Below, piece by piece: positions 6,784 through 38,740 of a stretch of 40,158 bases of DNA (the stretch's first letter is position 1; each line of letters starts with the position of its first letter). The position numbers and the translations under genes are program-made. The stretch is from Frankia nepalensis (GTDB lineage Bacteria; Actinomycetota; Actinomycetes; Frankiales; Frankiaceae), in the NCBI RefSeq assembly GCF_016786325.1, contig NZ_JADWYU010000126.1:1-40158 (forward strand). Direction: 5' to 3'. The notes below the pieces were generated by a model. The model was given only the letters and a program-made list of their open reading frames with translations. It was not told where the DNA came from and searched no databases.

Positions 6784-7992
6784 CTAACGGGGGACCGCGA
6801 CCGCCGCGAGGACTTCTTCGACGATGTCCTCCGCGTTGCGTCCGGCCAGTACGGCGGCCGAGGACAGGGAGAGGCGGTGGGCGAGGACGGGAACGGCGAG
6901 CGGCTTGATGTCCTCGGGATAGACGCTGTCGCGGCCAGCGACCCGGGCGCGTACCTGTGCCGCGTGCAGGAGCCCGACGCTCGCGCGGGGGCTCGCGCCC
7001 AGGACGAGGCTTCCCACGCTGGGCGCGACCGCCGGACGCGCCCAGCCGTTGCGCCCGGAACGGGGGTCGGGGTCGTCGGACTGCCCCGCCACGAGCCGTC
7101 GAGTCGCCCGAGTGATCCTCAGCAGGTAGTCGTAGACGGGGTCCTTGACCGTGGTCCGGCGCGCGATCCCACGCAGCGCCAGCACCTCCGCCTCGCTGGT
7201 CGCCGCGGTCACTGGCCTAGCCTCGCGGCGGTGGTCGCTCCACTGACCGTCGCGCGGCAGCCAGGCTCGGTCCGGAGCGAGTGGGTCATAGGCCGGCTCG
7301 CTGCCGGCGCGCGCCTGGTGGCCAGCAACCCGGCCGTTCTCGTCCGGCCGGCCGTGTTCCGCCACGGCGCCACCCCCGGGTACCGTCGCGACCTTGGCCG
7401 CCAGCACCCGCTTCTCGGCCGCGAAGTCGGGGTAGCCCATCCGGATCCGCATCAGGAAGCGGTCGAGCTGCGCCTCGGGCAGCGGGTAGGTGCCGTCCAT
7501 GTCGACCGGGTTCTGCGTGGCGACGACCAGGAACATCTCAGGCAGCGGGTGGGTCACGCCGCCGACGGTGACGTGGTGCTCCTCCATCGCCTCCAGCAGC
7601 GCCGACTGCGCCCGAGGGGTGGCCCTGTTGATCTCGTCGGCGAGGACCACGTGCGCGAAGACCGGTCCCGGCATGAACTCCCGCTCGTTGCTGCGCGGCC
7701 GGTAGATGTCGGTGCCGGTGATGTCGCTCGGCAGCAGGTCGGGGGTGAACTGGATGCGCTTCATGCTGGCCTGCACGGAGGCCGCCAGGCAGCGCGCGAG
7801 CAGTGTCTTGCCGACCCCGGGCAGGTCCTCGATCAGCAGGTGCCCGCCGGCCAGCAGGCACGTGACCGCGAGCCGCACCTGATCGGGCTTGCCCTGCACG
7901 GCCGTCTCGATGGTGGAGGCGATCCGTTCGAACGCCTCCGGAAACCCCTCGTCCCGCACCTGTCCCCCGTCCGGTTGCCTGACTGAGCTCAT
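6784..7992 (-). CDS. MoxR-family AAA+ ATPase
   Basis: A 402-residue AAA+ ATPase of the MoxR/RavA class. Walker A is LPGVGKT (57-63), Walker B VVLADE (115-120), sensor 1 ATQNP (158-162), and the conserved LPEAQLDRF lies at 171-179. The C-terminal lid (about 268-402) includes the SPRASVGLL and VYPEDIK segments typical of MoxR proteins. Between core and lid is a ~58-residue polar insertion (about 204-262: GRPDENGR, HQARAG and more) not seen in most MoxR proteins; it is in frame and may be a lineage extension. MoxR ATPases are thought to be chaperones that mature partner complexes, usually with DUF58 and vWA proteins. The ATG overlaps the previous gene by 4 bases; this is the last gene of the operon. 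Confidence 0.93.
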   Translation of the reverse strand: MSSVRQPDGGQVRDEGFPEAFERIASTIETAVQGKPDQVRLAVTCLLAGGHLLIEDLPGVGKTLLARCLAASVQASMKRIQFTPDLLPSDITGTDIYRPRSNEREFMPGPVFAHVVLADEINRATPRAQSALLEAMEEHHVTVGGVTHPLPEMFLVVATQNPVDMDGTYPLPEAQLDRFLMRIRMGYPDFAAEKRVLAAKVATVPGGGAVAEHGRPDENGRVAGHQARAGSEPAYDPLAPDRAWLPRDGQWSDHRREARPVTAATSEAEVLALRGIARRTTVKDPVYDYLLRITRATRRLVAGQSDDPDPRSGRNGWARPAVAPSVGSLVLGASPRASVGLLHAAQVRARVAGRDSVYPEDIKPLAVPVLAHRLSLSSAAVLAGRNAEDIVEEVLAAVAVPR

Positions 7993-9347
7993 CGATGTGC
8001 CGCCAGCGAGCGGCGTGGCGAGTCCGCTTCGGCCCCGGGGCCGAAGCCGTCCCGCCGGTGGCCTCCGTCCCGCCGGTGGCCTCCGTCGCGCCGGGCACCG
8101 TTGTTCACCGGTGGGCCTGGTTCGGCTCGTGGCGCCTGAGCGCGGATCGCGGCCACGCAGCCGTCTCGCCGTCGCCAGGCCTTGGCGGCGTCCTCGGGAC
8201 CGACGGCGGCGTCCGCGCCATAGAGGACAGCGGCCGCGCTGTCGGCCAGCGCGCGCAACGGCTCGGCCAGCGGTCCGCCAGATCCCTGGACCGCTCGCTC
8301 GACGAGCTCGTCGATGGTCAGCCCAGCGTCGACCGGCAGCCCTGCATGCCCCAGCTCGCCGACCGTGTCCCTCCACGCGGCCAGGAGCCGCGCGTCCGGC
8401 CGGCCGTGAAGTCGCCGCCATCTGCGCCGCCACCGGCGCGTGGCCCAGCGGGCGACGAGTGCCAGCAGCACCAGAAGCGTCGCCGCGAGCACGGCGAGCA
8501 GCAGGATCGGCAGCGGATCCCGCCACGGCGGCGGGATCGGCGGCGGCGTGGGATCGGGCGGCGGGGTGTCGACCGGGCCCGTCGGCGCGGTCGGCCCATC
8601 CTGGGGACTGCCGGTGGTCGGCGCGGGGCTCGGGGCATCGGCGCCGCCGGTGGAGGCGAACAGGCCGAGGCGAGGGTCGACGGCGGGCCCGGTGAACGCG
8701 GCCATCGCGGCCCCCGCCGTCGCCGCCCCAGCGCAGAGCGCGGTGACGGCGACCATCGCGGCCATGGCGGCTCCGGGCCCGCGAACCGGCGGTCGCGGCC
8801 GGGGCGGTCGCGACTCGCCGGCCCGAGCCAGCAGGAACAGCGCGGTGACCGCGACCAGGCCAGCGGCCACAGCGACCTGGCGGCTGTCCGCGCGGAAGGC
8901 CAGAACCTGCGTTCCGGCGGCCACGGCGACGGCCGGCAGCAACGGAGCGAGCCCAGCGGTCCCGCGGCGGACCAGCGCGGTCCCGGAGGCGGCGGCGAGC
9001 CACACCAGCGCCGAAGGGACGACAGCGAGTTCGGCGCTGTATCCGGCTCCCTCCGCCGACAGCGGGAGGCGTGGGCCTTCCCACAAGGCCCACGCGAAGG
9101 CCCGAAGGCCGGTCCCATCGGGCAGGCCGTAGAGCAGGGCGAAGCTGGTGAGGAACCAGCCGGCCGCCGACACCGGCGCGGCCAGCCATCCGACGCCGCG
9201 TGGCCACCGGGTCGCCGTGAGCAGCGTGGGCACGGCCGCGCAGGCGACGAGTAGCGCGGCGAATCTCGGGTTCGGGGGCGCGAACCCGCCGCCGGCCATC
9301 GCCGACGCCGCCGCGACGCAGGCCACCGTCACCGCCTGGCGGCTCAT
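7989..9347 (-). CDS. TgpA-like membrane protein lacking the transglutaminase core
   Basis: A 452-residue protein. About six hydrophobic helices lie in residues 3-175, one more at 190-217, then a ~60-residue Pro/Thr/Gly-rich loop (218-277), a further helix (278-299), a basic stretch (RWATRRWRRRWRR) and a cytosolic DUF4129-like domain (about 318-400: LLAAWRDTVGELGHAGL, TIDELVERA, PLRALADSAAAVLYG). This is the layout of TgpA/DUF3488-transglutaminase-DUF4129 proteins, which usually accompany MoxR and DUF58, except that the ~100-residue Cys-His-Asp transglutaminase domain is replaced by the proline-rich loop. The C-tail has a short GGHRRD repeat. I chose ATG 9347 because it overlaps the DUF58 stop by 4 bases, as elsewhere in the operon; an upstream start would add 13 residues. 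Confidence 0.82.
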   Translation of the reverse strand: MSRQAVTVACVAAASAMAGGGFAPPNPRFAALLVACAAVPTLLTATRWPRGVGWLAAPVSAAGWFLTSFALLYGLPDGTGLRAFAWALWEGPRLPLSAEGAGYSAELAVVPSALVWLAAASGTALVRRGTAGLAPLLPAVAVAAGTQVLAFRADSRQVAVAAGLVAVTALFLLARAGESRPPRPRPPVRGPGAAMAAMVAVTALCAGAATAGAAMAAFTGPAVDPRLGLFASTGGADAPSPAPTTGSPQDGPTAPTGPVDTPPPDPTPPPIPPPWRDPLPILLLAVLAATLLVLLALVARWATRRWRRRWRRLHGRPDARLLAAWRDTVGELGHAGLPVDAGLTIDELVERAVQGSGGPLAEPLRALADSAAAVLYGADAAVGPEDAAKAWRRRDGCVAAIRAQAPRAEPGPPVNNGARRDGGHRRDGGHRRDGFGPGAEADSPRRSLAAHR

Positions 9348-10579
9348 CCGGGCGCGCCGTGGGTGAGGGCCGCGAGGCCCAGCCACAGGGCTGGCAGCGA
9401 GTCGACGCGGTCCAAGTCCACGGTGGCGACCGGCTCGCCTCGGCCGTCGGCCCGTTCCAGACGCGTGGCCGGAACGGACGCGCCCGTCCGCACGACGACC
9501 GCCGGTCCGCTCCGGTGGGCCCTAGCCGCGGCGAACGCGTCCCGGCTGCCCGGTCCCGTGACCACGACGAGCAGGGCGCCGGTGTCGCGGGCCGAGCCGC
9601 GCCGCTGTGCCAGCACGGTGTCGACCAGGGCAGCCGTCCCCCGCGCCGCGGGCCCGGAGCGCCCGACCACGTCGTCGACCGCGTCGTCGGCGCGCACGGC
9701 GGCGAGCTCGTCGAGCAGCCCGGTCGAGTCGTGGCCGCCCACGTGTGCCGGCCAGGCCAGGCCACCGGTCGCCCGCAGCCGCGCCGTCAGCCGTCGGCGC
9801 ACGTAGGCGTCCGTGACGGACGCCGCGACGTCCACCGCGTCCTCGAACGCGGCGTCGCCCGCGTCTCCCGCCGGGTAGGAGCCGCGCCGGGTGTCGAGGA
9901 GCACGAACGCGGCGGCCCTCGCCGGGTCCACATGGGTGCGTACCTGCAGCGTCCCGGCACGCGCCGACGACAGCCAGTGCACCCGGCGCAGGTCGTCGCC
10001 CGCGACGTACTCCCGCAGCCGTTCGAACTCCGCGAGACCGGGCCTCGGGAGTGCCCGCCCGGCGCCGGCCGTCCACTGATGGCGCGACCACACCAGGGGA
10101 TCGAGGTCGACCCGTCGCGGGTGGACGACGAGGGTTACCGCCTGCGCGAGCCCGCGCCTTCTCTCGAGCAGGCCGAGCGGGTCGCGGCGGACGGCCACCG
10201 CCGGGCCGAGGCACCACACCCCGCGGCGCGTGTCGGTCAGTGCCTGGCTCGCCGTCTCGGGCTTGGCGCGCCGGAGCCGCCGGACGGGAAGCGTGACCGG
10301 CGCCGGGCCGCCCGGCAGCTCGACCATGCCCGCGGCCCGCCGTCGACGCCGGCGGTTCTCGACGGTCACCGTTACCGTCACGGGTTCGCCGCGGGTCACC
10401 GGCATGATCGCGCCCGTCGACACGACAAGCCCGTCGCGGCCCGCCACCGCGAGCCCCGCCGCCCCCAGAGCCAGCGCGAAGCCGGCCGCGAGAGCGACCA
10501 GGCCGGGGTAGCGCAGCCCACCGCCGGCGGCTCCCAGGATGACGGCCAGCGTGACCGACCAGGTTCCGGCGGCCGTCAC
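9344..10579 (-). CDS. DUF58-domain membrane protein
   Basis: A 411-residue protein with two N-terminal hydrophobic helices (about 9-22 and 25-47) and a periplasmic or cytosolic beta-rich region, then the DUF58 signature at 185-215: FERLREYVAGDDLRRVHW, SSARAGTLQVR. This motif defines the family that travels with MoxR ATPases; DUF58 proteins carry a vWA-like fold and are likely MoxR clients. I chose the GTG at 10579 because it overlaps the stop of the upstream gene (GTGA), matching the other junctions in the operon; a longer in-frame extension to 10837 lies inside the upstream gene and has no protein-like character. Confidence 0.9.
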   Translation of the reverse strand: MTAAGTWSVTLAVILGAAGGGLRYPGLVALAAGFALALGAAGLAVAGRDGLVVSTGAIMPVTRGEPVTVTVTVENRRRRRRAAGMVELPGGPAPVTLPVRRLRRAKPETASQALTDTRRGVWCLGPAVAVRRDPLGLLERRRGLAQAVTLVVHPRRVDLDPLVWSRHQWTAGAGRALPRPGLAEFERLREYVAGDDLRRVHWLSSARAGTLQVRTHVDPARAAAFVLLDTRRGSYPAGDAGDAAFEDAVDVAASVTDAYVRRRLTARLRATGGLAWPAHVGGHDSTGLLDELAAVRADDAVDDVVGRSGPAARGTAALVDTVLAQRRGSARDTGALLVVVTGPGSRDAFAAARAHRSGPAVVVRTGASVPATRLERADGRGEPVATVDLDRVDSLPALWLGLAALTHGAPG

Positions 10580-25240: not shown

Positions 25241-28006
25241 ATGACGCCCGAGCACGAGACGGCGCTGGACCACGCGGCGGCGGCGGAGCACGAGACCGTG
25301 TCGAAACGCAGGACCGCGTCGACACACGGGACCGCGTCGTGGGCCGGTGAGCCGCCCGCGCCCGCGGCGCCGGCCGGTCCGCTCGCCGGTGTCCGCGTCC
25401 TGGAGCTGGCGACCCAGATCGCGGGGCCATACTGCGGCAAGCTGTTCGCCGACGCCGGCGCCGACGTGGTGAAGGTCGAGCCGCCCGGCGGCGACCCGAT
25501 GCGCGCGTGGTCCGCGTCCGGCGCCCGCCCCACCGCCACCAGCGGCGGCGCCGACGACGGCGCGCTGTTCCGTTACCTCAACACGTCCAAGCGCTCCGTC
25601 GTCGACACCGTCGACGGTCCGGATGCCCGCGCGCTCGCCGCCGCCGCCGACCTCGTCATCGTCGGCGGCGCCCTCGCCGGCACCGGAGCCGGTGGTGCCG
25701 GAGGTGCCGCCGGTGCGGACCCCGCCGCTGTCCGCCGGCTGCACGCGGACAACCCGCGCGCGGTGGTGCTGTCGATCAGTCCGTTCGGCCTCACCGGCCC
25801 CTGGGCCGACGACGGCCGGCAGCAGGGGTCCCCGCCCGGCGCGGAGGCGCTGGGCGGGGGAGCGGTGACCGAGTTCCTCCTGCAGGCGGCGTGCGGCTCG
25901 ACCGCCGGCCGAGGCGAGCCGGACGCCGCCCCGCTGCAGGCCGGCGGGCGGATCGGCGAGTGGGCGTCGGGTGCCTACGCCGCCGTCGCCGGGCTCGCCG
26001 CGCTGCGCGGCGCCCGTCGCGACGGGACCGGCGACCTCGTCGACGTGGCGATGCTCGAATGCATGACGATCATGATGGGCGGTCTGTCCGTCGTCGGCCC
26101 GACCGTCATGGGCAGGCCGACCGGCCCCGCCGGGCCCGCCCGCATCCCCGAGACGCCGTCGATCGAGCCGACCAAGGACGGCCTGGTCGGCTTCTGCACG
26201 ATCACGGCCCAGCAGTTCCAGGACTTCCTGGTCCTCATCGAACGTCCCGATCTGCTCGAAGACCGGGAGCTGGCGTCACTTGCCGGCCGGCACGCGCGCC
26301 GCGGCGAGTTCCAAGCGGCTGTGCGCGCCTGGACCACCCGGCACACCACCGAAGAGATCGTCGAGCTCGCCGCCGCGCTGCGTGTCCCGGTCACCCCTGT
26401 CGGCACCCCGGAGACGGTGACGGCGATCGACCAGTTCACCGCCCGCGGCGTCTTCGTCCCGAACCCCGGCGGGGGCTTCCTCCAGCCGCGCGTCCCCTAC
26501 CGGGTCGGCGACTTCCGCGGCCGCCCGGCCGCGCCCGCCCCCGCCCTCGGCGAGCACACGGACACCGTCGACTGGCCCATCCGCGCGGGAGCCGCCCCGG
26601 TGCCGCCCGCGCAGGGGACGCGCGAGCTGCCCCTGGCCGACCTGCGGATCCTGGACCTGACCGCGTTCTGGGCCGGGCCGTCGGCGACCATGCTGCTCGC
26701 CGCTCTCGGCGCGGACGTCGTCAAGGTCGAGGGCGTCTCCCGGCCCGATGGCATGCGGTTCTCCGGCGGCAAGCCGCCGAGCGAGGACCGGTGGTGGGAA
26801 TGGGGGACGATGTTCCTCGCTACCAACGCCGGCAAACGCGCGGTCAGCCTGGAGCTGTCGCGGGCCGAGGGACTCGAGCTGGCCCGCCGGCTGGTCGGGG
26901 CCTGCGACGTCGTCATGGAGAACTTCTCACCCCGCGTCCTGACCAACCTCGGCCTGGACTGGGAGACCGTGCGCGCCGCGAACCCGGCGGCCGTGCTGAC
27001 CCGGATGCCGGCCTTCGGCCTCGACGGCCCGTGGCGGGACCGCACCGGATTCGCCCAGACGATGGAACAGGCCAGCGGCATGGCCTGGCTCACCGGCACC
27101 GCCGCCGGCCTGCCGGTGATCCCGCGCGGCGCCTGCGACCCGATCGCCGGCCTGCACGCCGCGTTCGCCACGCTGGTCGCGCTCGCGGCCCGGGACCGCG
27201 ACGAGGGCGCCGGCGCCCTCGTCGAGGCGACGATGGTCGAGTCCGTGCTGAACGTGGCCGCCGAGCTGACCGTCGAGTACACGGCGAACGGCGCGTCGCT
27301 GCGCCGCGACGGCAACCGCGGGCCGCTGGCCGCGCCCCAGGGCGTGTATCGGTGCGCCCCAGGCCCGTTCTTGGCCGGCGGAGACTCCGGCCCGTTCTTG
27401 GCCGGCGGAGACTCCGGCCCGTTCTTGGCCGGCGGAGACTCCGGCCCGTTCCCGGCCTCCGCGGACCCAGCCCTGGGCTCGGGCCCGGCCGCCACCGGCA
27501 CGGCCTCGGACGCGTGGATCGCGCTCGCCGTCACCGACGACGCCCAGTGGGCGGCGCTGTGCCGGCTGCTCGACCGCGCGGACCTGGCGGCCGACCCCGC
27601 GCTCGCGACGTTCGCCGGCCGGCGGGCCACCGCCTGCCACGACCGTCTCGACGAGGCGATCGGCGCCTGGGCGGCCGCGCTCGACCGCCCCCGCGCGCTC
27701 GCCGCGCTCGCCGCCGCCGGCATCCCGGCCGCTCCCGTCACCCCGGCCGCCGACCTGCTCGCCAACCCGCAGCTGGCCGCCCGCGGCTTCTTCGAGCGGC
27801 TTTCGCACCCGGTGGTCGGCGAGCACCCGATGCCCGGGGTGGCGTTCCGGCTCGCGAGCCACCCCGGCCCGCTGCTGCGCCGCCCGTCACCGGTCTTCGG
27901 CCAGCACGACGACGAGGTCTACGGCGGCCTGCTCGGGCTCACCGGCGCCGAGATCGCCGGCCTGCGGGAGCGTGGCGTGATCGCCGACCGGCCGGCCGGC
28001 GTATGA
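25241..28006 (+). CDS. Fused double CaiB/BaiF family CoA-transferase
   Basis: A 921-residue protein with two class III CoA-transferase domains in tandem (about 45-440 and 465-915); single-domain members are ~400 residues. Each has the LAGVRVLELATQIAGPYCGKLFADAGADVVKVE-type N-terminal motif (repeated as ILDLTAFWAGPSATMLLAALGADVVKVE). At the position of the catalytic aspartate, domain 2 has Asp633 (CDPIAG) but domain 1 has Glu240 (GEWASG), as in other double-domain members I recall, so only domain 2 may form the acyl anhydride. A 27-bp tandem repeat inserts GPFLAGGDS three times (708-734) in a loop of domain 2. It probably transfers CoA between acids in the pathway. The stop overlaps the padR ATG by 4 bases. 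Confidence 0.92.
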   Translation: MTPEHETALDHAAAAEHETVSKRRTASTHGTASWAGEPPAPAAPAGPLAGVRVLELATQIAGPYCGKLFADAGADVVKVEPPGGDPMRAWSASGARPTATSGGADDGALFRYLNTSKRSVVDTVDGPDARALAAAADLVIVGGALAGTGAGGAGGAAGADPAAVRRLHADNPRAVVLSISPFGLTGPWADDGRQQGSPPGAEALGGGAVTEFLLQAACGSTAGRGEPDAAPLQAGGRIGEWASGAYAAVAGLAALRGARRDGTGDLVDVAMLECMTIMMGGLSVVGPTVMGRPTGPAGPARIPETPSIEPTKDGLVGFCTITAQQFQDFLVLIERPDLLEDRELASLAGRHARRGEFQAAVRAWTTRHTTEEIVELAAALRVPVTPVGTPETVTAIDQFTARGVFVPNPGGGFLQPRVPYRVGDFRGRPAAPAPALGEHTDTVDWPIRAGAAPVPPAQGTRELPLADLRILDLTAFWAGPSATMLLAALGADVVKVEGVSRPDGMRFSGGKPPSEDRWWEWGTMFLATNAGKRAVSLELSRAEGLELARRLVGACDVVMENFSPRVLTNLGLDWETVRAANPAAVLTRMPAFGLDGPWRDRTGFAQTMEQASGMAWLTGTAAGLPVIPRGACDPIAGLHAAFATLVALAARDRDEGAGALVEATMVESVLNVAAELTVEYTANGASLRRDGNRGPLAAPQGVYRCAPGPFLAGGDSGPFLAGGDSGPFLAGGDSGPFPASADPALGSGPAATGTASDAWIALAVTDDAQWAALCRLLDRADLAADPALATFAGRRATACHDRLDEAIGAWAAALDRPRALAALAAAGIPAAPVTPAADLLANPQLAARGFFERLSHPVVGEHPMPGVAFRLASHPGPLLRRPSPVFGQHDDEVYGGLLGLTGAEIAGLRERGVIADRPAGV
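27362..27442. repeat. 27-bp coding tandem repeat, three perfect copies
   Basis: Units at 27362-27388, 27389-27415 and 27416-27442 are identical and encode GPFLAGGDS each; a diverged partial copy follows. In frame, in the CoA-transferase gene. Confidence 0.95.
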
Positions 28007-30230: not shown

Positions 30231-31454
30231 GTGGGCACCACTCCCACCGTCAGCGACGCCGCGCTCGACCCGAGCCTCTTCTTACCCGAGCCGGAGCCCC
30301 GCGAGGTCCGCTACACGATCATCTCGGTGGACGACCACGTGGTGGAGCCACCGCATCTGTTCGCCGGCCGCGTCCCGGCGCGGTTCGCCGACGCGGCGCC
30401 GCGGATCGTCGAGACCGAGCGTGGGCACCAGGTCTGGCGGTTCGAGGACGCGACGTTCACCCAGGTCGGCATGAACGCCGTCGCCGGCCGGCGGCCGGAG
30501 ACGGTGAAGGTCGAGCCGTTCCGGTTCGAGCACATGCGGCCCGGCTGTTACGACATCCATGCCCGGGTGCGGGACATGGACACCAGCGGGGTGTGGGCGT
30601 CGGTGAACTTCCCGTCGCAGATCACCGGGTTCTGCGGCCGGGTCTTCTTCAACGCCCGTGACCAGGAGCTGGGTCTGGCCTGCGTGCGGGCCTGGAACGA
30701 CTGGTTGTACGAGGAGTGGTTCCAGGCCTATCCCGAGCGGGTCGTCCCGATGGGCATCACCCATCTGTCCGACCCGGATCTCGCCGTCGCCGAGATCCGG
30801 CGCAACGCCGCGCGCGGGTTCACCGCGGTCACCTTCCCGGAGCGCCCGCACCGCATCGGCCTGCCGTCGCTGTGGGACCGCGACCACTGGGACCCGATCA
30901 TCGCGGCCTGCGTCGAGACGGACACCGTCGTCACGCTGCACGTCGGCAGCGCCGGCCTGTCCGAGGCGCCGCCCGGCGCGCCGGGCCTGCAGCTCGGCTC
31001 GACCCTGTTCGGCCAGGCGTCGCTCACCGCGTGCGCCGAGTGGCTGTGGTCGGCCTACCCGGTCCGCTTCCCGGCTCTGAAGATCGCGATGAGCGAGGGC
31101 GGGATCGGCTGGGTCGCGATGCTGCTCGACCGGCTGGACAACATCGTCGACCGGTCCGGCTACGGCGTCGGCTGGGACCTGCGCCCCGCCGAGGTGCTGC
31201 GCCGCAACTTCTGGTTCTGCACGCTCGACGACCCGTCGACCATCGACACCCGCCACCGCATCGGCGTCGAGAACATCATGGTCGAGACCGACTACCCGCA
31301 CGGCGACGGCACCTGGCCCGACACCCAGCGGGTCCTGGCCGACGCCTGGGGGCACATCCCGGCCGCCGAGATCCGGGCGATGTGCTGCGAGAACGCCGCA
31401 GGCCTGTTCCGCCACCCGCTCCCGCCGTCCGTCCTGCCCGCCGACCCGGCCTGA
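30231..31454 (+). CDS. Amidohydrolase-2 family protein (paralogue C)
   Basis: A 407-residue amidohydrolase-2 protein: YTIISVDDHVVEPPHLF, MRPGCYDIHARVRDM, LHVGSAG, MSEGGIGWVAMLLDRLDN and the C-terminal VETDYPHGDGTWP. It is closest to paralogue B in the N-terminal half (shared NAVAG and MRPGCYD segments). I chose the GTG at 30231 because GGAGG (30221-30225) stands 5 bases before it; an ATG at 30192 would add 13 residues but lacks a Shine-Dalgarno. It is co-transcribed with the thiolase-like gene and the class II aldolase gene, 11 bases downstream. Metal-dependent hydrolase or decarboxylase; substrate unknown. Confidence 0.88.
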   Translation: MGTTPTVSDAALDPSLFLPEPEPREVRYTIISVDDHVVEPPHLFAGRVPARFADAAPRIVETERGHQVWRFEDATFTQVGMNAVAGRRPETVKVEPFRFEHMRPGCYDIHARVRDMDTSGVWASVNFPSQITGFCGRVFFNARDQELGLACVRAWNDWLYEEWFQAYPERVVPMGITHLSDPDLAVAEIRRNAARGFTAVTFPERPHRIGLPSLWDRDHWDPIIAACVETDTVVTLHVGSAGLSEAPPGAPGLQLGSTLFGQASLTACAEWLWSAYPVRFPALKIAMSEGGIGWVAMLLDRLDNIVDRSGYGVGWDLRPAEVLRRNFWFCTLDDPSTIDTRHRIGVENIMVETDYPHGDGTWPDTQRVLADAWGHIPAAEIRAMCCENAAGLFRHPLPPSVLPADPA

Positions 31455-31465
31455 AAGGCATTCCC

Positions 31466-32209
31466 ATGACGTTCGTCCCCACCGCCGAGAAGCTGATGCC
31501 GGAGCTGTCGACCCGCGAGGAGATCGCCCTGCTCGCCCGTGCCCTGTGGCGGGAGGGCTACAACGACCACCTTGCCGGGCACATCACGGCGTTACAGCCC
31601 GACGGCACCCTGCTGTGCAACCCATGGCTGGTCCGCTGGGACGAGCTGCGCCCCGAGCAGATCATCCGGATCGACCTCGCCGGCAACCTGCTCGAGGGCG
31701 ACTGGCCGGTCCCGCTCGGCATCCCGCTGCACCTCGCGCTGCACGCCGCGCGCGCCGACGTCACCTGGGCCGTCCACAACCATCCGCTCTACGGCACCGT
31801 CTGGGCCGACATGGGGGAGATCCCGCCGATCTACGACCAGAGCTCGGCACTCGGCGGCGGTGGCGACCTCGTGCTGGTCAACGAGTACGAGGGCCCGGTC
31901 AACGACGCCGCGACCGCCCGCGGCGCCGTCGACGCGATGGGCGGCGGCCATCTCGCGCTGCTCGCCGGCCACGGCGTCTTCGTGCTCGGCACCTCGGCCC
32001 GCTCGGTGTTCCAGCGGGCCGTGGCGCTCGAACAGCGCTGCCAGCGCGCCTGGCACGTCCGCGCGGCGGGCGCCACCCCGAGCCAGGTGCTGCCCGCCGG
32101 CTTCCTGAACCACATGAGGAACTCCGACGGCGACGGCTTCATCGGCTTCTGGGAGACCGCCGTCCGCGCCGAGCTGCGCGCCGACCCCACCCTCCTCGAC
32201 ACCCGCTGA
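31466..32209 (+). CDS. Class II aldolase/adducin-family protein
   Basis: A 247-residue protein of the class II (zinc) aldolase/epimerase family. Metal and substrate signatures are GYNDHLAGHITA near the start, VPLGIPLHLALHAAR, the zinc-histidine pair in AVHNHPLYG and the third histidine in LLAGHGVFVLG. Members cleave sugar-phosphate or hydroxy-acid aldols, or act as decarboxylases and epimerases; none can be named here. The ATG has AAAGG from the end of paralogue C, 11 bases upstream. Last gene of the operon, convergent with the GMC oxidoreductase gene across a hairpin region. Confidence 0.9.
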   Translation: MTFVPTAEKLMPELSTREEIALLARALWREGYNDHLAGHITALQPDGTLLCNPWLVRWDELRPEQIIRIDLAGNLLEGDWPVPLGIPLHLALHAARADVTWAVHNHPLYGTVWADMGEIPPIYDQSSALGGGGDLVLVNEYEGPVNDAATARGAVDAMGGGHLALLAGHGVFVLGTSARSVFQRAVALEQRCQRAWHVRAAGATPSQVLPAGFLNHMRNSDGDGFIGFWETAVRAELRADPTLLDTR

Positions 32210-32242
32210 CCGCCACGCGCGTCCGGGCTCCCTGTCGGACAT

Positions 32243-32315
32243 GATCGCCGTTTCTGCCCTCCGGGGGTCGTGAACAGGGCCTCATCACAACCCCGTTGGG
32301 GCACTATCGGCGATC
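32243..32315. terminator. Long bidirectional hairpin between convergent genes
   Basis: GATCGCCG (32243-32250) pairs with CGGCGATC (32308-32315), GCCC with GGGC (32299-32302), and an inner GGGGT-C-GTGA (64-73) with TCAC-A-ACCCC (85-94). It sits between the class II aldolase stop (32209) and the GMC stop (32333), so it probably ends both transcripts. It also has the build of a REP-type element. Confidence 0.6.
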
Positions 32316-32326
32316 CTGCATGCAGG
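32315..32326. repeat. 12-bp perfect palindrome CCTGCATGCAGG
   Basis: Directly abuts the preceding hairpin and lies just before the GMC gene stop. No function known. Confidence 0.6.
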
Positions 32327-32332
32327 GCGACG

Positions 32333-33994
32333 CTAGAAGATCTTTCCGATGTCCTGGCTGACGATCCTGGCCATGCTGTGCTCGGCCAGGGCCGCGATGG
32401 TCATGGAGGGGTTGCAGGCGCCGGTGGAGCCCGGGATGCGGGCGCCGTCGAGGACGTACAGGCCGCGGTGGCCGAGGACGCGGCCGTAGAGGTCGACCGC
32501 CGCTCCCATGGGGACCCCGCCCAGCGCGTGCCAGGTCGACGGCTCGGTGAGGTTCGTATCGATCATCAGGCCGCCGCCCGTCAGCGCGATCCCCGCCATG
32601 CGGGCGGCGATCAGGGTCTGGAGCGCCGCGTCCGCCGTCGTCGGCCAGGTCAGCTTGGCGTCGTCCTTCGCCGCGTCGTAGGTCCAGGTGCCGGCGGCTG
32701 GGACGATCCCGAAGCCGACCACGGTCATCAGCCGGTTGATACCGGCCAGCAGCGGCGGCGCGCCGGCATGGATGATGGTGAGCGGTATCGGGCTGTTCGG
32801 GTCGGTGGCGCCGACGCAGGCCGGACCTCCCTGCTGGGTGCCGGGGTTGTCCCACATGCCGACCCATTCGTAGATCCGGTCGCCGTTGTTTCCCCACTGG
32901 GTGCCGATCGCGTCGGGAAGGTTCGGAATCAGGTTCTTGGCGCGCGCCTTGACCAGCAGCCGGGTCGTGCCGGGCGAGCCGGCGTTGAGGAAAACCGCGT
33001 CCGCGATGATTCTTTTCTGTTCCCGCACGACGCCGCCGGTGTCGATGCGGTCGACGGACAGCACCCACTTCTTGTTCGCGTCCAGGGCGACGTCCCGCAC
33101 GACGTGAAGGGTCTCGACCCGCACTTTTCCCGTCGCCTCGGCGGCGGCGAGATAGGTGACGTCGATCGAGTGCTTGCCGCCGTTGTTGACGCCGAAGGCG
33201 ATGTCGCTGTTGGTGTAGGCCGCGTTGTACTGACCGGAGAGCTCCCCGCGCACGAAGTTCCAGTCGACCGGCAGCGGCACCCGGAACGTCCGCAGCCCCG
33301 ACCTGGGCGCGACCTTCAGGAAGATCCGGGAAGAGGTGTACGGGGACGTGTTGAGCACGTCGTCGGGAACCGTGGAGATCCCCAGCATCGAGGCGACCGT
33401 GGGATAGCACCACTGGTTCAGCTCGTCGTACAGGCCGGCGGCCATCGGCATGGACTTGGCGAAGTTCGTCTTCGTCGGCTGCAGGGTCATGCCGTGGTAC
33501 ATGATCGAGCCGCCGCCGACGCAGGCCCCGCAGTTGACGGTCATTCCCGAGCCCTTGATGACCTCGAGCACCCCGGTGTACAGCGGCCAGGTCTGGTCGC
33601 CCCCCGGGACGAGGCTCGCGAAGCTGGGCAGCGGCGGCCGGTCGGACAGCCAGGCCGACCGGTTGTCGAGGTTCGCGAGTGTCGCGAAGGTGTTGGAGTT
33701 CGGCCCGGTCGGCCACCGCAGGCCACGTTCCAGGACGAGGGCCGACACGCCGGCCTTGGCGAGCCGCAGCGCGGTCACGCCTCCGCCGAAGCCGGTTCCG
33801 ACGACCACGACCCGTTCGCGCTGCTCGGTCGTGGCGGCCCGGGCTGCTCCGGCACCGGTCACCAGCCCGCCAAGCGTGGCCGCGCCCAGCGCGGCGCCGG
33901 CGCCCGCGGTGCCCGCGAACCTCCGGCGGGTGACCCCCGCGGCCGAAGGCGTGGTGGTGGGCGCCGATAACTCGGTGGAAGCGTTTTCAGGCAT
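32333..33994 (-). CDS. Tat-exported GMC flavoprotein, cholesterol-oxidase type
   Basis: A 553-residue protein. A twin-arginine signal (TRRRFAGTAG, 22-31) and hydrophobic run end near residue 52 (ARA). The FAD site is VVVVGTGFGGGVTALRLAKAG (about 62-82), and ACVGGGSIMYHGM is the GMC loop near the flavin. The C-terminal active site has His489 in WHALGG and Asn528 in the GACNPSMT segment, which correspond to the His and Asn of Streptomyces cholesterol oxidase. So an exported 3-hydroxysteroid or other alcohol oxidase is likely. Good Shine-Dalgarno (GGAG, 6 bases). Single gene; its region upstream has a possible TTGACC-N17-TATCCA promoter at 34280-34308. Confidence 0.9.
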   Translation of the reverse strand: MPENASTELSAPTTTPSAAGVTRRRFAGTAGAGAALGAATLGGLVTGAGAARAATTEQRERVVVVGTGFGGGVTALRLAKAGVSALVLERGLRWPTGPNSNTFATLANLDNRSAWLSDRPPLPSFASLVPGGDQTWPLYTGVLEVIKGSGMTVNCGACVGGGSIMYHGMTLQPTKTNFAKSMPMAAGLYDELNQWCYPTVASMLGISTVPDDVLNTSPYTSSRIFLKVAPRSGLRTFRVPLPVDWNFVRGELSGQYNAAYTNSDIAFGVNNGGKHSIDVTYLAAAEATGKVRVETLHVVRDVALDANKKWVLSVDRIDTGGVVREQKRIIADAVFLNAGSPGTTRLLVKARAKNLIPNLPDAIGTQWGNNGDRIYEWVGMWDNPGTQQGGPACVGATDPNSPIPLTIIHAGAPPLLAGINRLMTVVGFGIVPAAGTWTYDAAKDDAKLTWPTTADAALQTLIAARMAGIALTGGGLMIDTNLTEPSTWHALGGVPMGAAVDLYGRVLGHRGLYVLDGARIPGSTGACNPSMTIAALAEHSMARIVSQDIGKIF

Positions 33995-34612
33995 GGTTGG
34001 CTCCAGATCGCGGGATCGGAATGCGTGGGCCTGGCCCAGGCACGGCGAATGGCGCCGCCGGGCGCGGCGAAGGAGGGTGCTGGCGGCACCCGGCCTGGAT
34101 TTCTCCTGAAATCAGGCCGATTGGCGGGAGCGGCAGCGCTGATGGGATGCCAAAGTTCTTCCAAACCATGCTGACGGGTTTTGGAAGACAACTGACGAAA
34201 GCCGGTTCCGCTGGGCCTGGTCGCCACGCCACACTTGGGGAGGAGCTTTGGCGACCTTTTGGGCGGGATGTCGATTACATGGATAACACCGTCTGATCAA
34301 CCGGTCAAGGGGAGGGTTCTCGAGCCCTCGGGGTGCGACGGTTGCGCGGGCAACATTTGACTTCGTGGCGCCCGCGCGGCAACGCCGCGGCCAGTTGTGC
34401 CGCGGATGACGCGAGCGTGGACAGGGCCTCGCGGAACCTGCGTGAAACCGGGCGGATCCTGGTCGACCGGATCGGTGAGGACGCCGAAGAAGGTGGGCCC
34501 GAGGTGAGTATGTTCGGCGCCGCCCCATGGACGGCCTACCCCGATCGGGGGGATTTCCGACAACCAGGCGAACCACGAGAAGGATTCGTGGCGGACGTGG
34601 CCGGGCGGTCCG
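33995..34612. other. 618-bp intergenic region upstream of the GMC gene
   Basis: It lies between the GMC gene start and the P450-fusion gene stop. It contains a dyad-like pair (CTTCCAAACC at 34158-34167, GGTTTTGGAAG at 34177-34187) and a sigma70-like promoter at 34280-34308. The frames here are not protein-like. Confidence 0.6.
34280..34308 (-). promoter_or_regulatory. Possible promoter for the GMC gene
   Basis: On the minus strand: TTGACC (34308-34303), 17-base spacer, TATCCA (34285-34280). It would give a ~280-base leader to the GMC gene. Related GATCAACCG and GGTCAAGGGG bases recur near 36852-36880. Confidence 0.3.
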
Positions 34613-36700
34613 TTACCGCGGCTCCTTGGTGGTCAGGGCGGCGGTAAGAAGGTCCGGGGCGGTGCCGTGGGCGTGGCTGGGATGCGAGCGGGCGAGCGTT
34701 CGCTTCGTGACGCTGGTGGCGTGGGGGTCGCGGCGGGCGAGGCGGCGGGCGACGCGGTGCGCGCTCGCGGCCGTCTGGTGGGCCGGGACGAGCGTGTGCA
34801 CGAGGCCGATCTGGGCGGCGGTGGACGCGTCAGCGGGGTCGCCGAGCAGGAGCAGGTGGCGGACCCGGGAGGCGCCGACCTCGGCGACCGCCCGGCTGAG
34901 CATGCCGCTGGCGCCGACCGGGATGCCGAGCAGGGTCTCCGGCATGCGGAACGTCGCCGTCTCGGCGGCGAGGCGCAGGTCGCAGGCCAGCGCCAGGGCG
35001 ACGCCCGCGCCGACGACGTCGCCGTGCAGGGCGGCGACGGTGACCTGGGCGGCGTTCTGGATGAGGCCCATCACCCGGTCGGTCTGCTCGGCGATGGCGC
35101 GCACCCGTTCCGGCGCCCACCTGGCGAGCCGGCCGAGCTCGTCCAGGTCGCCGCCGACGCAGAAGTGCTCGCCGGCGCCGGTCAGTACCACGGCGCGAAC
35201 GTCGTGGGCGGCAGTGAGCGAGCTGAAGACCTCCTCGAGCGCCGTGAGCACCGCCGCGCTCAGCCGGTTGTGCCTGTCCGGGCGGTTGAGCGTCACGGTC
35301 ACGACCGCCCCGTCCCGCCCGACCAGGACGGGCGGAGCCGGAACCAGGCCAGCCGTGGCCGGATGCTGGCCCTCGGCCGGGTCGGGGCCGGCGATGGTGC
35401 CGGGGGTGGCCGTGGCCGGGGGTGTCCACGGCTTCGGCGGCGCGAGTCGCACGGGCAGCGCCCGTGTGCCGCGGAAGGCCAGGTTGTCGTCGAACTCCCC
35501 CTCGCCGGCGAGCTCCAGGTCGGGGAAGCGCTCGAGGAGCATCGGGAGGAGCAGTGCCGCCTCCAGCCGGGCCAGGGGAGCGCCGAGGCAGTAGTGCGCG
35601 CCGGTCCCGAACGCGAGATTGCGCCGCGGCGGGCGGGTCAGGTCGAGGACGTGCGGGTCGGTGAAGACCGCCGGGTCCCGGTTGGCGGCGGCGAGCACCG
35701 CGTGCAGGAGCTGGCCCCCGCGGGCTGTCGTCCCGCCGGGAAGCGCGGTGTCGGCGGCGGCGTACCGGCTCACGAGCTGTGCCGGTGACACCAGGCGCAG
35801 CAGTTCCTCCACCGCGTCGCCGGCCCGTTCGGGATGTGCCGCGAGCCAGCGGGCCTGCTCGCGGTCCGCGATCAGCAGGCGCAGCCCGTCCGTCAGCAGG
35901 TCGCGGGTCGTCTCGTGGCCGGCGACCAGCAGAAGCCCGATGTTGTCTCCCGCCGCCGCGAGCACCGCGGGGTCCTGCCCCGCCGCCAGCCAGCGGCCGA
36001 GCGGGCCGTCCTGGGCCAGCCGGCGGCGGTTCGCCGGGCCGGTCAGGTGTGCCCAGTAGGCCTCCCAGAGCAGGTTGGCCCGGTGGGCGTCGTCGAGACG
36101 AGCCCGATTCGGGGAAAGGTCCAGCGCGTAGGCCAGTTCGTGACTGAGATGGCGCAGCAACGCCGCGTCCTCGGCTGGCAACCCGAGAACGTCAAGCATC
36201 ACGGCCATCGGCAGCCGGGCACCGACCAGCGCGTGGAAATCCACCGTCCCGCCGGCTCGCAGCGCCCGGGCCAGGTCGTCGAGATGTCGCCCGACCTGCC
36301 GCTCGACCTGGGCCCGCCACTGGGCCATCGCCTGCGCGGTGAAGAACGGCGCGAAGGCGCGGCGCAGCGCCGGATGCGTCGGCGAGTTGGTACCGATGGT
36401 CGTCGCCGCCACGCCCTCGCTCGCCCGGCAGGCCCGCCAGCCCGGCTGGTGCCCGTCGCGCCAGGCCGCGTCGACGGCATGCCACGCCCGGTCGCCCACC
36501 ACGTGCTGGCAGACCTCGTGCGAGGTGGCGAGCAGCGCGCCCCACGGCATCCGCACGACCGGCCCGAGCGCGCGCAGGCGCTCATAGACCGGGTACGGGT
36601 CGGCCCGTCCCGCCGGCGACATCAGCTCGCGGACGAGGCGGATCATCTGGCGCCGGTCGCCAGCCGGCGCGGGCGCGTCGTCGCTACTGGCGGTGCTCAC
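34613..36700 (-). CDS. Cytochrome P450 fused to an enoyl-CoA hydratase domain
   Basis: One unbroken frame of 695 residues. Residues 1-420 are a class I bacterial P450: I-helix AGHETT (260-265), ExxR at 299-302 and the haem loop FGTGAHYCLG with ligand Cys371. A Pro/Ala/Thr linker (421-455) leads to a crotonase domain (456-695): AVVTVTLNRPDRHNRLS, GEHFCVGGDLDEL oxyanion site and FRMPETLLGIPVGASGM with a catalytic-type Glu588. The other usual Glu of hydratases is Ala here (GAGVALALACDL), so a hydratase, isomerase or other crotonase reaction is possible. The GTG at 36700 is chosen (GGGGGGA 8 bases upstream); in-frame ATGs at 36745 and 36808 exist. Same strand as the PKS gene, 326 bases after it. 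Confidence 0.9.
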   Translation of the reverse strand: MSTASSDDAPAPAGDRRQMIRLVRELMSPAGRADPYPVYERLRALGPVVRMPWGALLATSHEVCQHVVGDRAWHAVDAAWRDGHQPGWRACRASEGVAATTIGTNSPTHPALRRAFAPFFTAQAMAQWRAQVERQVGRHLDDLARALRAGGTVDFHALVGARLPMAVMLDVLGLPAEDAALLRHLSHELAYALDLSPNRARLDDAHRANLLWEAYWAHLTGPANRRRLAQDGPLGRWLAAGQDPAVLAAAGDNIGLLLVAGHETTRDLLTDGLRLLIADREQARWLAAHPERAGDAVEELLRLVSPAQLVSRYAAADTALPGGTTARGGQLLHAVLAAANRDPAVFTDPHVLDLTRPPRRNLAFGTGAHYCLGAPLARLEAALLLPMLLERFPDLELAGEGEFDDNLAFRGTRALPVRLAPPKPWTPPATATPGTIAGPDPAEGQHPATAGLVPAPPVLVGRDGAVVTVTLNRPDRHNRLSAAVLTALEEVFSSLTAAHDVRAVVLTGAGEHFCVGGDLDELGRLARWAPERVRAIAEQTDRVMGLIQNAAQVTVAALHGDVVGAGVALALACDLRLAAETATFRMPETLLGIPVGASGMLSRAVAEVGASRVRHLLLLGDPADASTAAQIGLVHTLVPAHQTAASAHRVARRLARRDPHATSVTKRTLARSHPSHAHGTAPDLLTAALTTKEPR

Positions 36701-37026
36701 GCCAACGTCCCCCCGTCGCGGCGCCGACCAGACCGGCGACCGCATACCAGGACGGTAGGAGGCGGAGGTTACTCGTGAATTACCACCCGTGGCCCTTCCG
36801 CCGCACACCGACGAAATGTCGCGACGTGCTGTGTCCTTGGGCCAGGAGACCGGTCAAACCCCTTGACCAACGGTTGATCCGCATGCGGAGCGGTGGAGCG
36901 CGCTACGGTCCGTGGAGGTCGACCGCCCGCCGGCCGGACCAGGAGCAGGCGCCGTCCGCCGAGCAGACCGCGGTCGTCGCCTGCACCCTGGCCGGGCTGA
37001 TGGAACCGATCTGGCCGCCCCTGAGC
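36701..37026. other. 326-bp gap between PKS and P450-fusion genes
   Basis: It contains the GGTCAA-ACCCC-TTGACC dyad at 36852-36868. Too long for tight coupling of the two genes but with no terminator found, so co-transcription stays open. Frames here are not convincing. Confidence 0.5.
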
Positions 37027-38136
37027 TCAGGACCTGCCACTCCCGCGGGCGGCGAGCCGGGAGGGCGGGACGACCGCCCTGCCCGCGGGCGCGGCCCAGG
37101 TGCCGACGCAGCTCTCGGCCGTGATGCCGGGGCCGAATCCGGCGATCACGCCGCTCGCGCCGTGCTCGAGCGTGTTCTCCTCGAACATGCGGCGCAAAGC
37201 GTCGAAAACCACGGCGCTCGCGATGTTGCCGTGCTCGGTGAGCGTCGCCCTGCTGTAGCGGAAGTACGCCGGGTCCACTCCCAGGATGTCGCGCAGGTCG
37301 TCCAGGATGCGCGGGCCGCCGGCATGGATGATGTAGAAGTCGAGCGCCGTGGCGTCCCAGCCATGGCTGTCCGCGAGAGCGCGCAGCGCCGGCGCGAGCA
37401 TCGCCATCGTTGTCGGCACCCGCTTGTCGAGGCGGAAATGGAAGCCCGTCGCCTTGACCGCGTAGGAGATCCAGCGCTCCGTGTCCGGCACGAGGTAGGA
37501 GCCGTTGCGCTCCAGCCGCACGCCGTGCCCGCCATTCCCGCGGACGACCGCGGCGGCCACCGCGTCGCCGAACAGGCCGTTGGACAGGAGCGAGCCCACG
37601 TCCCGGTCGGAGGGCTGGTAGAGCAGCGAGCAGAACTCGCAGGCGACGATGAGGACGTTCGAGCCCGGGTAGGCATTGCAGAAGTCGGCCGCGCGGTTGA
37701 TCGCGGCGCCACCGGCCGCGCAGCCGAGCTGGGCGATCGGGATCTGTCGCGTGTCGTTCCGGAATCCCATGTTGTTGATCATCCATGCTGTCATCGATGG
37801 CATCAGGAAGCCGGTGCAGGAGACGAAGATGATGGCCTCGATGTCCTGAGCCCTGAGGTCGCCCGCTGCCGCGAGCGCGGCCCGCGCGACCTCGGGCACC
37901 CGCTGCCGGGCCTCCGCCGCATAGGTCGCGTTACGGGCCTCGAAACCCGGATGGCGCAGAGTCTCGGAAAGCGGGCGCACCAGGTGGCGCTTGTGCACCC
38001 CCGTGTTCTCGATGAGCTGGAGCACCAGGCCGAGCTGAGGATGGTCCGCGTGCAGCTCGCGTGCCAGATCCAGCGTTTCCCTCATCCCGATCGTATGTTC
38101 CGGCACCATGACGGCCGGGCGGCAAAGGATTGGCAT
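37027..38136 (-). CDS. rppA: Type III PKS, 1,3,6,8-tetrahydroxynaphthalene synthase-like
   Basis: A 369-residue chalcone-synthase-fold enzyme. The catalytic triad is Cys139 (QLGCAAGGAAI), His271 (IIHAGGPRILDD) and Asn304 (EHGNIASAVVFDAL). SCTGFLMPS includes Cys107, which corresponds to the extra active-site Cys of Streptomyces THN synthase, and GFGPGITAE closes the fold. The overall sequence, including the start PILCRPAVMVPEHTIGM, is strongly RppA-like from memory. RppA condenses five malonyl-CoA into 1,3,6,8-tetrahydroxynaphthalene, a precursor of flaviolin and HPQ melanin. A very strong Shine-Dalgarno (GGAGGAGGGG) lies 7 bases from the ATG. The downstream P450 gene on the same strand fits the rppA-P450 pairing. 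Confidence 0.9.
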   Translation of the reverse strand: MPILCRPAVMVPEHTIGMRETLDLARELHADHPQLGLVLQLIENTGVHKRHLVRPLSETLRHPGFEARNATYAAEARQRVPEVARAALAAAGDLRAQDIEAIIFVSCTGFLMPSMTAWMINNMGFRNDTRQIPIAQLGCAAGGAAINRAADFCNAYPGSNVLIVACEFCSLLYQPSDRDVGSLLSNGLFGDAVAAAVVRGNGGHGVRLERNGSYLVPDTERWISYAVKATGFHFRLDKRVPTTMAMLAPALRALADSHGWDATALDFYIIHAGGPRILDDLRDILGVDPAYFRYSRATLTEHGNIASAVVFDALRRMFEENTLEHGASGVIAGFGPGITAESCVGTWAAPAGRAVVPPSRLAARGSGRS

Positions 38137-38740
38137 GACGGACCCCTCCTCCGCGTGCGCAGGTCAGCCCAGGGGCGGGCGGGGCGCCCACGCGGCGATA
38201 TCGCGGATCGCGTCGGCCTGGTGGTTCCTTCGAGCATGCCCTCGCCGAGAGTGCCAAAACGGCGCCCCTCACCCGCGCGCGAACTTCACCCGCGCGCGGT
38301 GCGGCAATCCTGTACCACGGACGAAATAAGGGAAAGGCCGACGCTTCGCGGAGCGCGCCAAAGGCGGTTCCGGATGTTCGGCGCCCGCGGTGTCGTCGGT
38401 TATGTCGATGACGTCGCTCGCCCGCCGATCCGCGCGCATTTCCGGAGATCATGAGACGCTCGAGGGCCGGCGGTTCTCCCGCTCGCCGGATCTGTGCACT
38501 TTCCAGGGATTTCTATCTATTTGCCGTGATTTCCCACGGGTCTGGCAATCTACTGGCCGGGGCAGGCCGGGGCAGGCCGGGGCAGGCCGGGGCAGGCCGG
38601 GGCAGGCCGGGGCAGGCCGGGGCAGGCCGGGGCAGGCCGGGCCGAAGATCGCCGGCCGTGCGCGACGATCGGCGCCCCGGGGTCCGCGCGCCTCTGATCC
38701 AGGGGAGCGCCAGGCGCCTACCACCTGGCACCGGGACCGG
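38137..38740. other. 604-bp intergenic region with minisatellite
   Basis: It lies between the PKS gene start and the DUF2218 gene stop. It contains the 10-bp repeat at 38561-38640. The first ~400 bases probably hold the PKS promoter; no clear boxes seen. Open frames come from GC bias. Confidence 0.7.
38561..38640. repeat. 10-bp tandem repeat GGCAGGCCGG, eight perfect copies
   Basis: Eight identical units, non-coding, with a partial unit before. The perfect copies suggest recent expansion; the number may vary between strains and sequencing reads. Confidence 0.95.

Follow-up and report, generated by a model that had tools for sequence, protein, structure and literature searches.

A P450-crotonase fusion gene beside rppA and its probable kinship with a conservon-linked gene pair

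A cytochrome P450 and a crotonase are encoded in one frame, next to the gene for an RppA-type polyketide synthase, in a 40,158-nucleotide contig of Frankia nepalensis (the whole stretch is called the window here). With moderate confidence, the gene is read as a natural fusion of a P450 with a single-glutamate crotonase, kin to a conserved two-gene module, that would oxidise and then isomerise or dehydrate a thioester-bound substrate. The interpretation is thereby moved from naphthol coupling, proposed in the first-pass annotation, to a P450-crotonase module with conservon ties that is found at an rppA locus.

The fusion gene and its domains

Translation of the minus strand gave one open reading frame (36808..34613; 731 aa numbering) with no internal stops. 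The first 150 nt of this frame (from 36808) are without the coding GC pattern and a GTG at 36700 is preceded by a GGGGGGA stretch, so this GTG is likely the start of the fusion gene (34613..36700, minus strand), giving a protein of 695 aa and 73.8 kDa. A P450 domain (35435..36658, minus strand, ends approximate) is joined to a crotonase domain (34616..35335, minus strand) by a Pro/Ala-rich linker of about 33 codons (35336..35434, minus strand, boundaries approximate). Both domains scored above their Pfam cut-offs (PF00067 P450, 58.8 bits against 22.8; PF00378 ECH_1, 135.8 bits against 27), which agrees with the earlier description of a complete P450 and a complete crotonase in a single frame. 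Third-position GC is 0.88-0.94 across the linker (50-codon windows), and its codon-position GC pattern is the same as that of both domains. From the appearance of the sequence, the fusion looks real. The window is contig C397 of a draft assembly of 10.7 Mb (398 contigs, 96.8% complete). A structure prediction of the whole fusion from its single sequence (pLDDT 37.8, pTM 0.22) was discarded.

The I-helix acid-Thr (in AGHETT), the ExxR motif (E335/R338) and the heme cysteine (Cys407, or Cys371 counted from the 36700 start) that define cytochrome P450s are all present. The solved structures that best matched the P450 profile were 8yhn, P450 BioI (3ejb), CYP164A2, 5cje and PksS. P450 BioI has an acyl-ACP substrate. 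The BioI match is weak evidence, since macrolide P450s such as PikC scored nearly as high against the same profile.

The second domain belongs to the crotonase superfamily by its ECH_1 domain and by its predicted structure, a crotonase fold (pLDDT 73.7). Fold comparison placed LiuC at rank 1, enoyl-CoA isomerase 5e0n at rank 12 and DspI at ranks 26 and 30, so that the model resembles CoA-dependent crotonases, isomerases included. Alignment with rat hydratase put Ala604 at the Glu144 position, as the first-pass annotation had noticed for one of the usual hydratase glutamates, and Glu624 at Glu164. The domain is therefore outside the two-glutamate enoyl-CoA hydratases (Glu144 + Glu164), and has the single Glu164-type base of enoyl-CoA isomerase-like crotonases.

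The rppA locus

The type III polyketide synthase gene upstream of the fusion (37027..38136, minus strand) is a full-length rppA of the THN synthase type. PDB 1u0m is the best match of its product, with 557.7 bits against 122.6 for the runner-up, in keeping with the RppA-type neighbour described at first pass. We take 1u0m to be the S. coelicolor THN synthase; the entry itself is labelled 'putative polyketide synthase'. The minus-strand order is rppA (38136-37027), the fusion (36700-34613) and a GMC oxidoreductase with a Tat-like N-terminus (33994-32333). The last two genes lie in a segment (32211..37086, which takes in the final 60 bp of rppA) that does not match the syntenic relatives G029 and G033 at the DNA level. 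The flanks of the segment are syntenic with both relatives, which argues against a gross contig misjoin; DNA identity to G029 is 89% over 30275-32210 and 83% over 37087-38196. Between these flanks the two relatives carry about 1.3 kb, with the gene for a CYP158-like P450; in the window the interval is 4.9 kb long and contains the GMC gene and the fusion. The fusion thus occupies the site where relatives carry a CYP158-like P450.

For the order to which the window belongs, the sample was 35 genomes, all from one family. rppA was present in 18 of them, and in seven of the eight of the same genus, window included. Thirteen of the 17 rppA loci of relatives were compared. The gene after rppA encodes a P450 from a single clade (support 99) at all six same-genus loci and at three of the seven others; L162-L165 lack this P450. 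The fusion P450 fell outside this nine-locus clade in the tree and is 30-35% identical to its members. It scored 120.5 bits with CYP158A2; the rppA-adjacent P450 of G029 scored 338 bits with CYP158A2 and 502 with 6kzs. The test for orthology with the rppA-linked CYP158-type P450s of relatives was negative. By sequence, then, the fusion P450 is of another lineage than the rppA-adjacent P450s of its relatives, and its earlier assignment to the RppA-linked, naphthol-coupling type is not upheld.

The strongest alternative is that the fusion stands in for the CYP158-like P450 in the oxidation or coupling of THN or flaviolin, with the crotonase acting on a later intermediate or as a mere scaffold. 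The shared site, the full-length rppA beside it and a search of the own draft genome that found no orthologue of the relatives' CYP158-like P450 (best 39% identity, 190.5 bits) have to be weighed against the different lineage of the P450 and a gap of 326 bp between rppA and fusion, where rppA and P450 overlap or lie close in six same-genus relatives. Elsewhere the P450-crotonase pair is unlinked to rppA, with no rppA match at any of the 44 pair loci described below, and Glu624 is kept across the family, unlike what a mere scaffold would need. This alternative is considered unlikely overall; some role of the fusion in the THN pathway is possible, given its exchange for the usual THN P450. The swap is a natural experiment on whether a different P450 can handle THN.

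Thirteen further genomes of the order have GMC homologues (37-83% identity), which lie away from rppA where the sites were comparable; the GMC gene is thus not specific to the fusion. As signs of transfer, GC content and codon use were unremarkable, and phage sequences gave no match. A repeat scan returned short imperfect repeats only, which do not reveal a mechanism for the replacement. A promoter and terminator scan gave no promoter-like site and one terminator-like site, with 2.2 expected. Elsewhere in the window, a plus-strand ORF (25241-28006) encodes a Family III CoA-transferase of 921 aa with three matched stretches and a short tandem repeat, GGDSGPFLA; it is conserved with a thiolase, amidohydrolases and an aldolase in G029 and G033. 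The contig end (40050-40158) gives a G/P-rich low-complexity translation, which may be an effect of the assembly end.

Separate P450 and crotonase genes in relatives and their link to conservons

A protein search of plasmids found a P450 beside a crotonase in Streptantibioticus cattleyicolor and two Streptomyces. Of 246 genomes of the genus of G287 (presumably Streptomyces), 72 contained a match at E <= 1e-50 to a crotonase profile built from the three plasmid sequences, the window and G287. Seventy-one of these scored 304-427 bits and the last, truncated by a contig end, 232; among the order's 35 genomes a high score was obtained in the own genome only (363 bits, other crotonases <=143), the window sequence being part of the profiles that gave both the 304-427 and the 363 bits. 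The crotonase subfamily is set clearly apart by these scores. A class sample of 325 genomes yielded 21 crotonase matches at E <= 1e-42: nine of the genus of G287 and the window above 300 bits; the rest came from other families, with four scoring 183-190 bits and seven 148-165.

A P450 lies directly upstream of the crotonase as a separate gene at 30/30 loci taken with short flanks, a set that overlaps the following one. Forty-four loci were collected from 41 of the 72 genomes (G287 included; a non-random choice that began with the top of the listing and then ranged over it) and from the three plasmids. P450 and crotonase are separate, adjacent and on one strand in all 44; the distance between the P450 stop and the beginning of the crotonase domain match ranges from -1 to 138 nt, and at six loci the two genes share a frame. 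No second fused copy was found among the 35 genomes of the order or in class and phylum samples of 296 genomes each, which overlap and in which three candidates per genome were scored, so that a divergent fused copy could escape; the search for the same domain order in other genomes, suggested at first pass, thus found no example besides the window. The fusion protein matched 10 loci on genome contigs, through the crotonase only (28-34% identity). That homologues are always separate genes, named at first pass as a point against the fusion, holds at the 44 loci, but these genes are also always adjacent on one strand, which favours a functional pair over an artefact.

An artefact would mean that assembly or sequencing lost a true stop between two genes and that the window holds an ordinary adjacent pair. 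Separate genes in every relative, six of them in the same frame, and a draft of 398 contigs are what this predicts, but the roughly 33 linker codons with coding-like GC3, a fusion reading that requires no frameshift and the syntenic flanks make it very unlikely.

Profiles built from the 44 relatives only gave the window P450 322.5 bits and its crotonase 199. The best non-pair scores with these profiles were 322 (L025, a solo P450 with no crotonase alongside) and 288 for P450s, and 191, 187, 183 and 178 for crotonases; the solo crotonases L182-L185 (178-191 bits) have no P450 alongside. Identity of the window domains to four pair genes was 35-41%. Trees were calculated with 39 outgroup crotonases and 42 outgroup P450 rows, four of the latter being second entries of genes already included; the own genome has 79 P450 matches, of which only the subset extracted as loci entered the P450 tree. 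The 44 pair proteins formed one clade per domain, and the window fell just outside together with a few solo relatives (support of the P450 group 100, SH-aLRT, quick method; of the crotonase group 99/95). Both window domains are on long branches, with long-branch warnings for both trees. These comparisons are most simply read as pointing to one origin for the pairing. Convergent joining, with an origin independent of the conservon pair, is improbable: the long branches, and solo relatives that are just as close, would suit it, but among the P450s and crotonases compared both domains fall next to the partners of one conserved pair, a coincidence hardly to be expected by chance.

Four solo crotonases from other families (L208-L211, from G557, G116, G255 and G074) group with the pair crotonases and have no matching P450 within 12-17 kb. 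Among solo P450s, the closest relative of the fusion (L212, G280, 7924-10445) adjoins not a crotonase but an ORF that is ketosynthase-like, a label taken from the start of its sequence only. A Rhodococcus plasmid pair (H5/L023) was rejected as a member of the family on account of 23-30% identity, catabolic neighbours and a position outside the pair clades.

The I-helix Glu-Thr, the ExxR motif, the heme cysteine and the Glu164-type glutamate are invariant at the 44 loci, so both domains are probably catalytic. One fused gene here and adjacent genes in relatives suggest that the two enzymes work together. Among the 44 pair crotonases, 33 have Ala and 11 have Gly at the Glu144 position. PMC13126182 describes enoyl-CoA isomerase as needing one glutamate, which can be of the Glu164 type, and PMC9804861 reports Gly at position 144 also in T. 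thermophilus and Variovorax proteins. Because the loss of Glu144 is common to the pair crotonases and an isomerase needs a single glutamate, it fits known single-glutamate isomerases and is not by itself new chemistry, as the Ala had earlier been taken to imply. The oxyanion-hole Gly141 of the hydratase corresponds to Ala601, and to Ala in 44/44 pair relatives; this decides nothing, as the oxyanion hole there works through a backbone NH. A minor difference is a shorter C-terminus: the glutamate is followed by 107 residues, compared with 109-126 in 43/44 relatives (L099 was missed by the motif search).

The order cvnA-cvnB-cvnC-cvnD-CYP157-like-P450-crotonase was found at 41 of the 44 loci (39 of 41 genomes and two of three plasmids); L022, L098 and L112, without the full conservon order, were kept in the count. 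The cvn and CYP157 profiles came from L020, L021 and L047, which match by construction. The L020 genes gave HATPase, Roadblock, DUF742, ATP_bind_1 GTPase, P450, P450 and ECH_1 in Pfam, with the CYP157-like gene just under the P450 cut-off. The K-helix of three aligned CYP157-like proteins ends in VLW, with Arg absent; a K-helix missing Arg, hence without ExxR, is given as a CYP157 trait in PMC3599690. According to PMC13343842 (2026), the fifth, accessory gene of a conservon encodes a P450 or a GAF protein, CvnE proteins are P450s proposed to act on CvnA, and the function of CvnE and CvnF is called unknown; PMC8510531 places P450 genes in conservons 9-12. The word 'hydratase' is absent from PMC13343842 and PMC8510531, and searches of open papers returned none on a crotonase in conservons. 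The window has no cvnA-D match, and rppA lies upstream of the fusion instead. At L098 (G374) the pair is upstream of a cvnA-B-C-D set, not downstream; L098, L125 and L127-L137 have two roadblock (CvnB) matches before CvnC. The own genome has a cvnA-B-C-D-CYP157 conservon on contig C77 (L214), which ends about 85 bp past the CYP157-like match.

The conservon-end P450 and crotonase, with a natural fusion hinting at joint action, are a concrete pair to study. The crotonases RpfF and DspI make fatty-acid signals. A speculative and rather unlikely extension is that the conservon-end pair makes a small acyl-derived signal sensed by a complex of the ExxR-less CYP157 with CvnA, and that the window holds the signal-making pair fused and sensor-free in a naphthol pigment locus.

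Proposed chemistry and comparison with known systems

The preferred reading of the fusion as a catalytic module implies two steps. The P450 would oxidise an acyl-type substrate bound to CoA or to a carrier protein as a thioester; the crotonase would use its Glu164-type base to shift a double bond in the oxidised intermediate or to eliminate water from it; and the fusion would keep the intermediate local. Judged from its sequence, the enzyme is most likely of this oxidise-then-isomerise or -dehydrate kind, and the two-step chemistry suggested earlier from the fused crotonase is plausible.

Several known systems share parts of this arrangement. In the conservon, an actinobacterial G protein system with CvnE (CYP157), relatives of the fusion are the last two genes at 41/44 loci; the window is without cvn genes, and the fused P450 has ExxR and so falls outside CvnE, whose K-helix is without Arg. 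With the rppA-adjacent, biflaviolin synthase-type P450 CYP158A2 the fusion shares its position beside rppA, but differs in score (120.5 bits, against 338 for the relatives' rppA-adjacent P450) and in clade. Like Delta3,Delta2-enoyl-CoA isomerase and other single-glutamate crotonases, it keeps only the Glu164-type glutamate; the window crotonase is isomerase-like by sequence, and is fused to a P450 where its relatives are paired with one. CYP221A1, a P450 fused to an acyl-CoA dehydrogenase, likewise joins a P450 to a CoA-ester enzyme, the partner being a dehydrogenase there and a crotonase in the window. The DpgA system, with DpgB/DpgD, has a type III polyketide synthase and a crotonase in a single gene set, as does the window; the polyketide synthase of the window, at 129.8 bits, is far under the DpgA cut-off of 425 and is closest to 1u0m.
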